Source of the DNA: Demequina subtropica
GTDB lineage: Bacteria > Actinomycetota > Actinomycetes > Actinomycetales > Demequinaceae
Length of the DNA: 64,000 bases
Assembly: GCF_000971235.1 (NCBI RefSeq)
Contig: NZ_BBMB01000001.1
Location: forward strand, 200,006-264,005
Reading direction: 5' to 3'
Shown here: positions 59,399 to 64,000 of the stretch, piece after piece
Layout: each line of letters begins with the position of its first letter
Numbering within the stretch: the stretch's first letter is position 1
Position numbers and translations under genes: made by a program
Notes under the pieces: model-generated
What the model was told of the DNA's origin: nothing
What the model saw: the letters and a program-made list of their open reading frames with translations, nothing else
Databases searched by the model: none

Positions 59399-60124
59399 TC
59401 AACAGGACGGATCGACCTCGGTGCGCGGCGCATCGTCCGCGAGGAACGCCGCGAGCCGCGGCAAGGTCACCGCGCCGGCGACCTCGTCGAGGTCCGAGGA
59501 GAACAGGACTCCCACGACGTCGCCCGCGGCATCGGTCACGGGCGACCCCGAGTTGCCTTCCTCGGCGTGCATCCGCAGGGAGTAGATGGGTGCGCCGTCC
59601 GGGTCGAGCTGGTTCTCGCGGCGGTCGATGAACGTGCCCTCGAGCGTCGCGAGCGGGCCCCCGAGGGCGAAGCCGGTGGCGACGACCTCGTCGCCGGGCT
59701 CCGGCTCGTCGTCCGCGAGCACGCCCGCCTCGGGGAACTCGCCTTCGATCGTGATGAGGCCGAGGTCGTCCGTCCGTGAGAACTCGGCGACGGTGCCCAC
59801 GTACTCGCGCCCCTGGTAGTCCGTGAGCTCGATGACGGTGGCGCCCTCGATCACGTGCCTGTTGGTGACGGCGTGGGTCGCGTCGAGCATCCACGCGCTG
59901 CCGTTGCGGTACGCGTCGCAGGTGCGCGCCCACACGCGCAGCGCGATGCGCTCGGCATGCGTGAAGCCGTCCCCGGGGGACGATGCGGGGGTCGCCGTGG
60001 CGACAGCTGGCGTCGCGTACGGGCCGGGGGAGAGGACGGGGCCGAGCGGCGTGCATGCCCCGAGGGCGAGCACCGCGGCGCAGGCCGCCGCGACGCCGGC
60101 GACGTGGCCCCGTCGGTCACCCAT
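59399..60124 (-). CDS. Trypsin-like serine protease lipoprotein (module B)
   Basis: This 241-residue extracytoplasmic protein has a lipobox (LGAC, Cys24), a Pro/Ala/Thr linker, the segment GDGFTHAERIALRVWARTC, and a chymotrypsin-fold triad: His90 (TNRHVI), Asp120 (TDDLGLI) and Ser192 (GNSGSP). Cys69 and the very last residue Cys241 are positioned as a disulfide. Cys69-His90 and His90-Asp120 spacings equal those of the paralogue encoded upstream. It lacks a PDZ domain. It is last in the five-gene operon and overlaps the coiled-coil gene by eight bases. The substrate is unknown. Confidence 0.88.
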   Translation of the reverse strand: MGDRRGHVAGVAAACAAVLALGACTPLGPVLSPGPYATPAVATATPASSPGDGFTHAERIALRVWARTCDAYRNGSAWMLDATHAVTNRHVIEGATVIELTDYQGREYVGTVAEFSRTDDLGLITIEGEFPEAGVLADDEPEPGDEVVATGFALGGPLATLEGTFIDRRENQLDPDGAPIYSLRMHAEEGNSGSPVTDAAGDVVGVLFSSDLDEVAGAVTLPRLAAFLADDAPRTEVDPSC

Positions 60125-60641
60125 GCGAGTCCTGGAAGGCCTCGAAGGCCTGCTCGACCTCGGCGCAGTACTCGACGATCGACTGCTCCGAGGCCTCGAT
60201 GCTCGAGGCGACGTAGCGCTCGCGGTGGCGCAGCACCTCGAAGTGCTCGGCCTGGGCATCCACGCAGTGCTGGTACGCGGCGACGATGTCCTCGAGCTCC
60301 GTCACGAGCTCGGTGCCGCGGGCGCCCTGGTTGACCGCGGACGAGTAGTCCTCCTTGAGCGCCACGAGCTGCTGCTCGACGGTCTCGAGCTCCGCGATAC
60401 GCGTGTGCGCGTCGGTGAGCTCCGCGGTGAGCGCGTCGACCCGTTCACGCAGCTCGGCGTTCTGCCCCTCCCAGTGGTGGCGTGCGGTCGCGAGCAGCGC
60501 GAGAGGCACGGCGAGGGCGACCACGAGCAGGCATGCGGCGACCAGCGCGATCGCGAGCCCGCGCCTGCTTGGCGCGGGCGCGGGGTCCGCAGGCGCGACG
60601 CCGGAGCCGGGCTCCGCGGCGGGAGGCTGAGCCTCCGTCAC
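60117..60641 (-). CDS. Membrane-anchored coiled-coil protein (module B)
   Basis: This 174-residue protein has a Pro/Ala-rich cytoplasmic N-terminus, one membrane segment (about residues 28-51), a heptad coiled coil (about 57-100) and a C-terminal helical segment with Cys126 and Cys159. The C-x32-C spacing is identical to that of the other coiled-coil protein in this operon, around a shared LED...C(I/V)(E/D)...LR...Y pattern. The GTG start overlaps the upstream protease stop (GTGA). No known domain is recognised; I infer a partner or anchor for the adjacent protease. Confidence 0.83.
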   Translation of the reverse strand: MTEAQPPAAEPGSGVAPADPAPAPSRRGLAIALVAACLLVVALAVPLALLATARHHWEGQNAELRERVDALTAELTDAHTRIAELETVEQQLVALKEDYSSAVNQGARGTELVTELEDIVAAYQHCVDAQAEHFEVLRHRERYVASSIEASEQSIVEYCAEVEQAFEAFQDSHG

Positions 60642-61411
60642 GGGGTGGCCTGGTACTGGTTCGGCGCGCAGCTGGCCTCGGGCACGAAGAGCGACTCCTC
60701 GCTCAGCAGCGTGTTGAGGGTCGAGATGGGGACGATGAAGCTCTGGTTCGAGTAGTTCTTGGCGTAGATGACGCCCACCACGCGGCCGTCCTCGTCGAGC
60801 ACGGGCGATCCCGAGGAGCCCGGCTCGACGCTCGCGCTCGACGCGAGCACGGTGCCGACCGCGACGCCCTTGGGGTCGGTGGTCGGGCCGAGCACCACGC
60901 CCGCGGTCGAGGTCAGTCGACCGCCGTTGGGGTAGCCGACCACGGTGATGACGTCGCCCTCCACGGGGTCCTCCTGGGCGCGGCGCGCATGCGCGGTGCC
61001 CAGCGACTCCTCGGTGGTGACGATCGCGATGTCGGCCACCGTGGTGGTGGTGGCCGCGGTCGCCGCGATCGAGCGGCCGTCGTAGGTGGTGACGGTGATG
61101 CGCTTCGCGTCCTCGACCACGTGACGGTTGGTGACGAGCGTGTGGGAGTCGAGCGCGAAGCCGGTGCCCGTGGCGATGAAGCCGCATCCGACGTTGCGCA
61201 CGCGGACCGTCATGCGCTGCGCGGCGGTGAAGCCGTCGGGGGACAGGGCTCCCGTGCCGTCCCCGGGGGAGGCGGAGGGCTCGGGGATGAAGTCGTCCGG
61301 GAGAGCCGCGGGCTCGACGGGCAGCGCGGCGCACGCGGTGACCGTGAGCATGACCGCGGCCGCGCTCGCGAGGGCGCCCCACGTGCGGCGGGCGCGGCGG
61401 GTGCGGCTCAC
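60638..61411 (-). CDS. Trypsin-like serine protease lipoprotein (module A)
   Basis: This 257-residue lipoprotein (lipobox VTAC, Cys27) has an acidic/Pro linker, the segment DGFTAAQRMTVRVRNVGC and a chymotrypsin-fold triad: His97 (TNRHVV), Asp127 (VADIAI) and Ser200 (GSSGSP). Cys76 and Cys248 flank the domain and probably pair. All three residues lie in good context, so it should be active. The start GTG at 61411 overlaps the coiled-coil gene before it (GTGA). Compared with HtrA proteases it has no PDZ domain and no N-terminal membrane helix. Confidence 0.9.
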   Translation of the reverse strand: MSRTRRARRTWGALASAAAVMLTVTACAALPVEPAALPDDFIPEPSASPGDGTGALSPDGFTAAQRMTVRVRNVGCGFIATGTGFALDSHTLVTNRHVVEDAKRITVTTYDGRSIAATAATTTTVADIAIVTTEESLGTAHARRAQEDPVEGDVITVVGYPNGGRLTSTAGVVLGPTTDPKGVAVGTVLASSASVEPGSSGSPVLDEDGRVVGVIYAKNYSNQSFIVPISTLNTLLSEESLFVPEASCAPNQYQATP

Positions 61412-62196
61412 GGCGCCACCGACTGCTGGAACGCGACGTTCGCGTCGGCCGCCGCCTCGCACAGCGCGTCGACGCTGGTGGCGAAGCTCTCGAGCTCGCT
61501 CGGCTTGTAGTCGTCGGGGCTGCGCAGGTAGTCCGCGAGCTGCTCGTGGCCCTCGATGCAGCGGCTGAGCGAGCTGGCGACGGAGGTGGCGTCCCCGATT
61601 ACGTCCTCGAGCGCCGTAATCTCCTCCTGCGCGAACGCGGCATCGTCGCCCCACTGCGCGTTCTCGGCCTGAAGGCGGCTCACCGTGTCCTTCGAGGTCG
61701 CGAGCTGCTGGGTCACCAGGTCGAGCTGCTCCTGGGTGGCCGCCAGCTCCTCGCGCTCGGCCGCCACCTGATCGCCGAGCTCGTAGCCCTTGGCGGTCAT
61801 CTCGGCGACCTGGGCCTCCCACGCGTCGGACACGCGCCACAGGTAGGCGATGAGGGTCACCGACGCGAGCAGCAGGACGGACATGATCGCCACCGTCACG
61901 ACGAGCGCGGCAGGGCGGGAACGATGCACGATCACGCGCGGCTCGTCGGCCGGCTCCTCGTCGGGATCGCCGATCACGGGGTCCGCGGCATCGTCCTCGC
62001 CGTACGGGTGCGCGGCGTCGATCGTGTCGGCGGCCACCACGGGGATCTCGTCGGTGTCGACGCGGTCGCCTGGTGCCGGGTCGCCCCCGACGGGGGTGAA
62101 GGGGGAGCGGCGGCTCGGGACCATGACCGACTCGCGCGCGGGCGCGTCGGCCCCCCGCGTGTCGGCGTCGTGCCGGCTCTGCTCCCCAAGTGTCAC
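61408..62196 (-). CDS. Membrane-anchored coiled-coil protein (module A)
   Basis: This 262-residue protein has a long acidic cytoplasmic segment (about residues 40-90, rich in Asp/Glu/Pro), one membrane helix (96-119), a coiled coil (about 125-200) and a C-terminal helical part with Cys213 and Cys246 (C-x32-C). The GTG at 62196 shares a base with the DUF1844 stop (TAGTG), and the stop overlaps the protease start. It looks like the longer paralogue of the module B protein. Function is unknown; a cytoplasm-to-exterior signalling or scaffold role is inferred. Confidence 0.83.
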   Translation of the reverse strand: MTLGEQSRHDADTRGADAPARESVMVPSRRSPFTPVGGDPAPGDRVDTDEIPVVAADTIDAAHPYGEDDAADPVIGDPDEEPADEPRVIVHRSRPAALVVTVAIMSVLLLASVTLIAYLWRVSDAWEAQVAEMTAKGYELGDQVAAEREELAATQEQLDLVTQQLATSKDTVSRLQAENAQWGDDAAFAQEEITALEDVIGDATSVASSLSRCIEGHEQLADYLRSPDDYKPSELESFATSVDALCEAAADANVAFQQSVAP

Positions 62197-62567
62197 TACG
62201 TGACCGCCCCCGTGTACTTCTCCCCGGGCCCGTCTCCGGGCCGGTCCGGGATGGCCGAGGCCTCCCGGAATGCCAACTGTACGCTCCGCAGTCCGTCCCT
62301 CAGCACCCGTGCATGGGTGTCCCCAAGGTCCGGTGCGGCGGCGGTGACGAGTCCGGCGAGCGCGTTGATGATCGTGCGCGCCTCGTCGAGGTCCATGAGG
62401 TCCTCGCCCTCCTCCGCCAGGCCGCACCGGAGCGCGGCCGCACTGAGAAGATGAACGCTCACCGTCGTGATAAGTTCCACGGCGCCCACATCCGCGAGGT
62501 CGCGCGCGGCGTCGCCGGGACCCTCCGTGGGCACGCCGGGACCTGCTTCCTGGTCTTTCTGGCTCAT
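62196..62567 (-). CDS. DUF1844 protein
   Basis: This 123-residue DUF1844 protein has the core [20 protein letters not shown] and [16 protein letters not shown], all helical. It lies next to infC in most actinobacteria. Here it heads a five-gene minus-strand operon, one base overlapping the next gene. The ATG at 62567 gives MSQKDQEAG. Function is unknown. Confidence 0.92.
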
Positions 62568-62600
62568 GGTTGCTATTCTTGTCCATCGACCGGTTGCGGC

Positions 62601-62648
62601 ATGTGCTGCAACACGCAAGTGGAGTCCACTCCCACCCGAGGACCATAG
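62601..62648 (+). CDS. Possible 15-codon leader peptide before infC
   Basis: An ATG-started frame ([15 protein letters not shown]) ends at a TAG and sits in the 233-base infC leader upstream of the attenuator-like hairpin. It has two consecutive Cys codons. No convincing ribosome-binding site precedes it, so translation is uncertain. Confidence 0.3.
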
Positions 62649-62709
62649 GGGGCCTGGGTATCGGTTCCGGTGAACGGCGCATCGTGCGCTCGGGCATCGT
62701 TGCTGTGGT

Positions 62710-62737
62710 GGCCTCTGCTCGCATTCGGGCAGGGGCC
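62710..62737 (+). promoter_or_regulatory. Attenuator-like hairpin in the infC leader
   Basis: GGCCTCTGCTCG (62710-62721) pairs with CGGGCAGGGGCC (62726-62737), twelve pairs with two T-G pairs and a CATT loop, followed by TTTCCTCGTTT. It has the form of an intrinsic terminator and ends 63 bases before the infC start. infC operons are often autoregulated by ribosomal-protein-bound leaders; a terminator in the leader fits that mode. Confidence 0.65.
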
Positions 62738-62800
62738 TTTCCTCGTTTCCGGGGTGGGGACCTGGCCGTCGATCCACAGAAGCAACGAGAAGGAGCCGCT

Positions 62801-63478
62801 ATCAACGAGCCGCGCATCAACGAGCGCATCCGTGTCCCCGAGGTCCGCCTGGTCGGTCCGAAGGGCGAGCAGGTCGGCATCGTCCGTATCGAGGATGCCC
62901 TCCGTCTGGCGCAGGACGCCGAGCTCGACCTGGTCGAGGTGGCGCCCAACTCGCGTCCTCCCGTCGTCAAGCTCATGGACTACGGCAAGTTCAAGTACGA
63001 GGCGGCCGTCAAGGCTCGTGAGGCCCGGCGCAACCAGGCCAACACCGAGATCAAGGAGATGCGGTTCCGCCTCAAGATCGACGAGCACGACTACGAGACC
63101 AAGAAGGGCCACGTCGTCCGCTTCCTCAAGGGTGGCGACAAGGTCAAGGTCACGATCATGTTCCGCGGTCGTGAGCAGTCCCGTCCTGAGATGGGCCGTC
63201 GCCTGCTGATGAAGCTGGCGGAGGAGCTCCAGGAGTTCGGCGTGGTCGAGAACGCGCCGAGCCACGAGGGTCGCAACATGTCGCTGGTCCTGGGTCCGCT
63301 GAAGAAGAAGGCGGAGGCCAAGGAGGAGCAGCGCAAGGTGCGTGAGGAGCGCAAGGCCGCCGAGGCCGCCGCGCGCGAGGAGCGCAAGGCGCCCAAGGCT
63401 GGAGAGGTGGCCGACGAGGTCGCCACGGAGGTCGAGGAGTCGGCCGCCACGGAGGTCGAGGAGTCGACCGCCGAGTAG
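62801..63478 (+). CDS. infC: Translation initiation factor IF-3
   Basis: IF-3 binds 30S subunits and checks start-codon pairing. The 225-residue protein begins [20 protein letters not shown], and a strong AAGGAG lies five bases before an ATC codon; infC classically uses such rare starts for self-regulation. Core motifs [25 protein letters not shown] and [19 protein letters not shown] are complete. A charged Ala/Glu/Lys-rich tail of about 50 residues contains a tandem [19 protein letters not shown]-type repeat. rpmI and rplT follow. Confidence 0.97.
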
Positions 63479-63573
63479 TCGTCGCAAGACGCCACAGGCT
63501 TCGGGCGCTCGCCGCCCGTGAAACGTGCTGGGATCCCACCGGAGCCCAGCCAGACCTAGAAGGAGAGGCAGCA

Positions 63574-63768
63574 ATGCCCAAGAACAAGACCCACTCGGGT
63601 GCCAAGAAGCGCTTCAAGCTCACCGGCACCGGCAAGGTGAAGCACGCCTCGGCGATGAACGTCCACAAGTTCGAGGAGAAGCACTCGTCGCGCAAGCGCC
63701 GTGTCGCGCAGGACCAGATCCTGTCCGACGCCGACTCGAAGAAGATCAAGAAGCTGCTGGGCAAGTAA
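63574..63768 (+). CDS. rpmI: 50S ribosomal protein L35
   Basis: This 64-residue basic protein has the L35 signature MPKNKTHSGAKKRFKLTGTG. AGAAGGAGAGG lies before its ATG. The 95-base gap after infC includes a small hairpin (GGGCG...CGCCC) but no obvious promoter. It is part of the infC-rpmI-rplT operon. Confidence 0.98.
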   Translation: MPKNKTHSGAKKRFKLTGTGKVKHASAMNVHKFEEKHSSRKRRVAQDQILSDADSKKIKKLLGK

Positions 63769-63798
63769 GCCCGTACTGAAAGCCCAAGGAGACTAAAA

Positions 63799-64000
63799 AT
63801 GGCACGCGTCAAGCGGGCGGTCAACGCCCAGAAGAAGCGCCGGACTACCCTCGAGCGCGCTGCGGGTTACCGCGGCCAGCGTTCGCGCCTCTACCGGAAG
63901 GCGAAGGAGCAGGTCACCCACTCCCTCGTCTACTCGTACAACGACCGCCGCAAGCGCAAGGGCGACTTCCGCAAGCTGTGGATCCAGCGCATCAACGCTG
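63799..64000 (+). CDS. rplT: 50S ribosomal protein L20, partial
   Basis: The gene begins [18 protein letters not shown] and is cut by the window end after 67 codons. L20 is an early 23S rRNA assembly protein and in many bacteria represses the infC operon through its leader, making the hairpin described before infC a candidate target. A site AAGGAG precedes the ATG. Confidence 0.98.

Follow-up and report, generated by a model that had tools for sequence, protein, structure and literature searches.

A candidate L20-type attenuator and a non-canonical IF-3 start codon in the infC leaders of Demequina subtropica and other Actinomycetes

The infC leader of Demequina subtropica lies in the last part of the window, by which we mean the whole 64,000-nucleotide stretch of contig NZ_BBMB01000001.1 (assembly GCF_000971235.1) that was analysed. 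Upstream of it a divergent DUF1844 gene starts at 62567, and downstream the genes follow in the order infC, rpmI, rplT, so that the leader has the placement 5' of infC-rpmI-rplT that an L20 attenuator requires. The same three genes are found 3' of the leader in the Tsukamurella record. The features of the locus, with the basis for each, are as follows:

62571..62579, forward strand: probable extended -10 promoter element TGC-TATTCT (direct reading)
62593..62612, forward strand: 5' hairpin GUUGCGGC-AUGU-GCUGCAAC, directly before the core (fold)
62601..62648, forward strand: 15-codon frame, MCCNTQ..., judged incidental (ATG and Cys codons poorly kept in the genus)
62614..62660, forward strand: L20-site-like core (match to model R1, covariation, element order as in the Firmicutes L20 leader and the 23S junction)
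62615..62630, forward strand: predicted antiterminator strand 1, overlapping the core (minimum free energy (MFE) fold of the nascent transcript; own-versus-swapped test)
62707..62722, forward strand: predicted antiterminator strand 2, the 5' arm of the terminator (same basis)
62710..62750, forward strand: intrinsic-terminator-like hairpin, stem 62710-62721/62726-62737 (fold)
62790..62795, forward strand: Shine-Dalgarno (SD) sequence AAGGAG, 5 nt 5' of the ATC start (direct reading)
62801..63478, forward strand: infC (IF-3), start codon ATC (Pfam IF3_N and IF3_C)
63574..63768, forward strand: rpmI (L35; Pfam Ribosomal_L35p)
63799..64000, forward strand: rplT (L20), truncated by the end of the window, presumed effector gene (Pfam Ribosomal_L20)

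A preliminary description of this DNA had named a 12-bp hairpin with a T-rich tail, the 15-codon frame and an ATC start after AAGGAG, and direct reading finds all of them in place. Sequences similar to the -10 element (TGCTATTCT/TGCTATCCT) occur at the same position in many leaders of the genus, and transcription would start near 62586. The stem letters of the 5' hairpin vary on both sides among the genus leaders, as judged by eye, and in other families this hairpin is of variable length or missing. The fold of the whole leader is unremarkable when compared with shuffled sequences (z -1.48, with 20 of 200 shuffles equally good), and a hairpin in one genome is therefore weak evidence, the weight resting instead on its conservation. 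Rfam models scanned over the window gave as their sole match an unrelated mraW RNA (RF01746, 19342-19439) at 51 bits, which barely exceeds the gathering score of 50.

The segment 62614-62660, which is the best conserved of the leader, had been left unmarked in the preliminary description and was recognised from the printed leaders of relatives as the block GCAAGYGGAG...CUCCCACC...GGGU. Its fold follows the pattern AAG-Y-[GGAG/CUCC]-C-ACCY...RGGU, and in D. subtropica it consists of A62617, A62618 and G62619, the bulged U62620, GGAG (62621-62624) paired with CUCC (62629-62632), C62633, and ACCC (62634-62637) paired with GGGU (62656-62659). An alignment of 65 diverse leaders gave a consensus structure with AAG, a bulged base, GGAG/CUCC and then a G-C pair using the G of AAG, together with a second, variable hairpin (helix 2) closed by ACCY/RGGU. 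The MFE fold of the full D. subtropica leader favours another hairpin in the core, the L20-site form costing only 0.2 kcal/mol more. Covariation in actinobacterial infC leaders, which had been proposed as a check, bears the structure out: 92.7% of the cells in the 65 leaders are paired versus 43.6-58.0% after sliding by 1-3 columns, and 76 cells carry changes on both sides versus 24.2 in shuffles. None of 500 shuffles reached any of the five covariation measures, two of which fail to separate the structure from its slid versions, since these equal or slightly exceed it in pairs with a both-side change (7, slide -3) and in further pair types (25, slide -1). The 65 leaders were picked by a pattern containing AAG, GG and CCAC, which 191 of 202 oriented loci fit, and the invariance of these letters is thus partly built in; no such selection was made for helix 2, either for its pairing or for the extension that covaries freely. 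Helix 2 has CC/GG in 65 of 65 sequences, as does AAG (65 of 65, partly by selection).

The same 65 leaders served as the training set for a covariance model of the core, R1. A match to it falls in the infC leader of 79 of the 80 named loci (L061-L140) and of every one of the 80 class-level (Actinomycetes) loci (L141-L220), 79 of the latter at E<0.03 and L185 at 0.3. The training set includes sixty of these 160 loci; of the 100 loci outside it, 99 match R1, two of them (L142 and L189) with a repeat of a training leader, and four pairs of loci carry an identical leader. The single miss among the named loci, L099, reads by eye AAG-U-GAGGG...CCCUC-C-ACC, while Tsukamurella, a named Mycobacteriales locus, scores 42.6 bits. 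AAGN is followed by GG in 151 and by GA in 8 of the 159 R1-positive leaders. In two of them, from Streptomyces sp. NRRL S-350 (L118, 2173-2254) and Kitasatospora sp. MAA19 (L119, 2174-2255), the R1 match is 82 nt long, which means a large insertion in one of the core hairpins. The infC leader of the D. subtropica genome scores 45.1 bits and the next best place 16.1 (150 of 6731 first-look candidates scored), and the window and the named loci (490 kb) contain no other R1 score above 19.4 bits.

Outside the class, R1 matches 7 of 38 loci at E<0.01; the set as searched held 40 loci and gave 9 matches, including the class members L270 and L271, and one of its loci (L268) has 101 bases only. A looser descriptor, AAG-N-[at least 4 bp]-C-RCC...GGY, written after both forms were known, is present in 12 of 26 orientable out-of-class leaders; adding the two class members makes this 14 of 28, versus 0.38 expected for the 28. 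Of the 40 loci, 12 had been dropped beforehand (11 without orientation and one short). A genome-wide R1 scan of 119 genomes of the phylum found matches in only 8, and in none of the four f21 class genomes, whose leaders (L182, L183, L270, L271) do score with R1 when searched directly; because its first-look step passes 50 candidates per genome on to scoring, the scan was not used for distribution. Both of its matches outside the class precede infC. Arnvig et al. described a similarity between the infA and infC UTRs in M. tuberculosis. The best R1 match before infA is partial, with an E value of 0.46 (7 infA loci in 6 genomes, M. tuberculosis not knowingly included), and by this test we reject a core motif common to infA and take the similarity of Arnvig et al. 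to be something other than this motif. A genome that is probably Streptomyces (G244) has, in addition to its main infA, another infA-like gene (C1:443080-443280).

What the core resembles is seen by comparison with ribosomal RNA. The 23S rRNA of the same genome contains GGC-CCCU-AAGC-[GUGUGCU...AGUACAC]-C-GCC, and that of E. coli has GGU-CCCA-AAGU-[CAUGGUU...AACUAUG]-C-ACC at the same place, an AAGY-helix-CRCC junction which we take to be the H40/H41 region bound by L20. In the rRNA locus (4806 nt) there is a single AAGY-[at least 6 bp]-CRCC site, yet one or more such sites also occur in 35 of 200 shuffles. The junction and the core share their elements, but the GGY strand has been shifted from the 5' to the 3' side of the core, where it is rejoined via the helix-2 hairpin. 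An AA dimer with two consecutive G-C pairs, given as the L20 signature in the available part of PMC7247131, is present at the helix junction of the core, as in 23S. The decisive comparison is the L20 leader of Anoxybacillus amylolyticus (RF00558, 73.7 bits), which reads AAAAGC-AGAAGC-ACCC-GCUUCU-C-ACCU...AGGU before infC-rpmI-rplT; it has the element order of the core. Since IF-3, L35 and L20 are all encoded downstream, a real attenuator might respond to something other than L20, either a different protein of the operon (L35 or IF-3) or some other 23S-binding component of ribosome assembly. We regard this as unlikely, given that each element of the core has its counterpart both in the L20 leader of Firmicutes and in the 23S junction and that, to our knowledge, neither L35 nor IF-3 binds that junction. 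The Anoxybacillus operon, with thrS, the L20 leader and infC-rpmI-rplT, is carried on a 258-kb plasmid record (pDSM15939_1, L280). Plasmid infC genes without rpmI or rplT annotated in the stretch shown were also seen in Paenibacillus polymyxa pSC2 (L281, 592-1098) and on a P. thiaminolyticus plasmid (L282, 589-1095), and are extra copies of IF-3.

The terminator-like hairpin has 12 pairs and a CATT loop followed by TTTCCTCGTTTCC, with a T-rich tail at 62738-62750, and the segment 62707-62752 folds at -24.3 kcal/mol. Its U-run is poor in this genome, and a consensus terminator scan of 60000-64000 gave 0 sites. Across leaders, terminators scoring at or below -18 were found in 120 of 145 (83%) versus 160 of 435 shuffles (37%), and at the loosest setting in 127 of 145 versus 267 of 435 shuffles (61%); 18 of the 145 leaders have no terminator by the criteria used. 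The terminators have a median position of 53 nt 5' of the start codon, with 80 of 120 within 35-75 nt. When the transcript is folded up to 62726, its MFE structure contains a helix of 62615-62630 with 62707-62722, and the full leader folds with the terminator instead of this antiterminator. The pairing appears to be specific to each leader: the core 5' strand binds its own terminator arm at -19.1 kcal/mol versus -15.7 for swapped and -12.3 for shuffled arms (n=119, with 26 of the 145 leaders dropped for want of a qualifying terminator or core), and the own pairing exceeds the mean of the swaps in 86 of these 119 leaders and is no stronger in the other 33. With swaps matched for GC content and length, the own pairing is stronger in 62 of 77 leaders and not stronger in 15 (p 1.6e-8), while a control strand, the neighbouring strand of helix 2, gives 34 of 77 (p 0.69); for this matched test near-duplicates were removed (96 left, 77 with enough partners), and common descent is handled by this thinning only. 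The L20 site and the antiterminator are mutually exclusive because both use the same nucleotides. By computation, then, the leader has both an intrinsic terminator and an antiterminator that excludes it. An outer helix, P1 (GACCG...CGGUC), had modest support (86 of 145 leaders with a 6-nt complement versus 61 expected) and is not part of what we claim.

The poor T-run of D. subtropica and the 18 leaders in which no terminator was found would also suit a hairpin that makes the polymerase pause constitutively, marks a site of processing or stabilises the mRNA, with the core acting on translation or stability. This seems to us quite improbable, given the enrichment of terminators at the stricter setting and the tuning of the terminator arm to its own core but not to the adjacent control strand.

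The infC start is ATC in 152 and ATT in 5 of the 157 leaders in which it could be resolved (the other two of 159, L087 and L210, carry an identical leader), and an SD-like GGAG precedes the ATC in most of the relatives printed. In 10 of 30 loci of the genus there is an in-frame stop upstream of the ATC (4-9 codons upstream in nine of them and 63 in one) with no ATG, GTG, TTG or CTG between, and for this reason the ATC is very probably the true start. The annotated GTG start of infC in Tsukamurella tyrosinosolvens (L283, 547-597), 16 codons upstream of an SD-ATC start, is an example of a missed ATC start. In E. coli, the AUU/AUC start of infC is the basis of autoregulation by IF-3, and the start found here is likewise among the AUU/AUC/AUA codons by which such autoregulation is recognised. 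A class-wide non-canonical start fits the start-codon discrimination by IF-3 that had been suggested for D. subtropica, and with ATC or ATT in all 157 resolved starts it could be asked whether this alone controls the operon, the leader being a passive structured UTR; we consider this very unlikely, because it leaves the conserved core, its covariation and the match between core and terminator unexplained.

The mini-ORF fares differently from the hairpin and the start codon. Its ATG sits in the loop of the variable 5' hairpin, whose surrounding stem changes on both sides, and is present in 4 of 30 genus leaders, while both Cys codons occur in 2 of 30, the one in the window among them; no conserved short ORF with Cys codons was thus found in the 30 genus leaders, and a role for the frame is not supported. 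Cysteine-responsive attenuation through translation of MCCNTQ... is accordingly rejected as extremely improbable, since, although in this genome a 15-codon ORF with two adjacent Cys codons does end 5' of the terminator, the frame is poorly kept and infC-rpmI-rplT have no evident link to cysteine.

The conserved core, its covariation, the terminator enrichment, the competing pairing and the ATC start are computed from the sequences, and L20 binding, the direction of control, the efficiency of termination and the IF-3 feedback are what we infer from them. We consider it probable that the infC leader is an L20-type attenuator in which an L20-stabilised core frees the terminator, with the ATC start as an additional layer. 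The attenuation by L20 put forward in the preliminary description is in this way well supported by the computed L20-site architecture, terminator and leader-specific antiterminator. With little L20 available, the strand 62615-62630 on the 5' side of the core would pair with the first arm of the terminator (62707-62722), and with the terminator blocked the polymerase would continue into infC. L20 present in excess of its 23S rRNA target would bind the core and hold it in its folded form (AAG-Y-helix-C-ACC/GGU), which would be a copy of the 23S AAGY-helix-CRCC/GGY junction with reconnected strands; the terminator arm would then be free, and transcription would end near 62740-62750. The proposed direction of control follows from the core being at once the source of the antiterminator and the L20 site, two states which exclude each other, the free core favouring antitermination and the L20-bound core termination. 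As a second layer, IF-3 would be expected to discriminate against the ATC start of infC.

In the open-access literature searched, most subscription papers being outside its scope, we saw neither an L20-type infC leader in Actinomycetota nor binding or termination data on any infC leader of the phylum. As far as the available parts of these papers go, a survey including Corynebacteriaceae and Mycobacteriaceae confines L20 leaders to Firmicutes and Thermotogales (PMC3766115), the L20 leader RNA is called narrowly distributed to Firmicutes (PMC6097659), no actinobacterial infC leader is listed in PMC7247131, and infC is named only for a promoter motif in PMC4128351. In M. tuberculosis, according to the accessible sections of PMC3207917, infC has a strongly expressed 5' UTR of 326 nt, with a 5' UTR/CDS read ratio of 2.6 that rises to 4.9 in stationary phase, and the B. 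subtilis L20 case is cited there as an analogy. What is new is therefore an apparent L20-type switch before infC in nearly all Actinomycetes loci sampled, where surveys had placed this kind mainly in Firmicutes; as judged from sequence, it is a real, class-wide and apparently unannotated attenuator coupled to a non-canonical IF-3 start. If this is true, an autogenous circuit of ribosome assembly would go back much further, or be much more widespread, than has been stated, and a whole class, Streptomyces among its members, would have a regulator that had been missing. There would also be a candidate explanation for the prominent signal from the 5' UTR of infC in M. tuberculosis, and a second model for L20 could be added to Rfam. 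We lean slightly towards a broader reading, in which one L20-sensing attenuator, a permuted copy of the 23S junction whose 5' strand serves as antiterminator, would be common to Bacillota and most Actinomycetota, either inherited from before their split or spread early, a GC-rich drift in Actinomycetes having caused it to be missed by models and surveys; the infC operons of Streptomyces and, by extension, of mycobacteria would then be attenuated by L20.

Compared with known systems, the leader is closest to the Firmicutes L20 leader (RF00558, the infC-rpmI-rplT attenuator of B. subtilis), with which it shares the operon, the order AAG-N-helix-C-RCC...GGY and an intrinsic terminator further downstream. 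Competing folds, of which L20 favours the one with the terminator, are predicted here and reported for B. subtilis in the available parts of PMC10931766 and PMC6097659, the latter placing the L20 site at the H1/H2 junction and having bound L20 stabilise the terminator. Unlike the Firmicutes leader, the present one is GC-rich, its H1 stem is GGAG/CUCC as opposed to AGAAGC/GCUUCU, the length of its helix-2 hairpin varies strongly and a 5' hairpin often precedes the core. RF00558 (gathering score 58.7) had no match in the window, the D. subtropica genome or nine other loci, and even at E<=10 it had none in the leaders of L004 and L190; although the core is shared with the Firmicutes leader we treat the present leader, below the Rfam threshold, as a separate variant outside RF00558. 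However, of 20 loci scanned, picked partly for having the looser descriptor, some from deep-branching Actinomycetota carry the Firmicutes-like version: L236 scored 65.6 bits, above the cut-off, and L248, L250, L243 and L235 lay below it (56.1-36.1 bits), and because of these the Firmicutes-like and Actinomycetes forms grade into each other. Such a natural series, from Firmicutes-like through intermediate to Actinomycetes form, may let one follow the drift of an rRNA mimic together with the co-evolution of its antiterminator.

The rpmI-rplT operator of E. coli has in common with our candidate that its mRNA mimics the 23S L20 site (PMC10931766, in the part available), but it is translational and acts on rpmI-rplT, infC being outside L20 control, whereas here the control is predicted to be transcriptional and to act upstream of infC. 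The deltaproteobacterial L20 r-leader candidate of Eckert and Weinberg 2020 (PMC7247131), as far as its accessible text describes it, likewise shows a proposed mimicry, with the AA dimer and two consecutive G-C pairs, on another scaffold and in another phylum. Finally, the autoregulated infC of E. coli, with its AUU/AUC start, shares the non-canonical start after a strong SD sequence, and differs from the Actinomycetes leaders in that these use ATC and add a predicted transcriptional attenuator.
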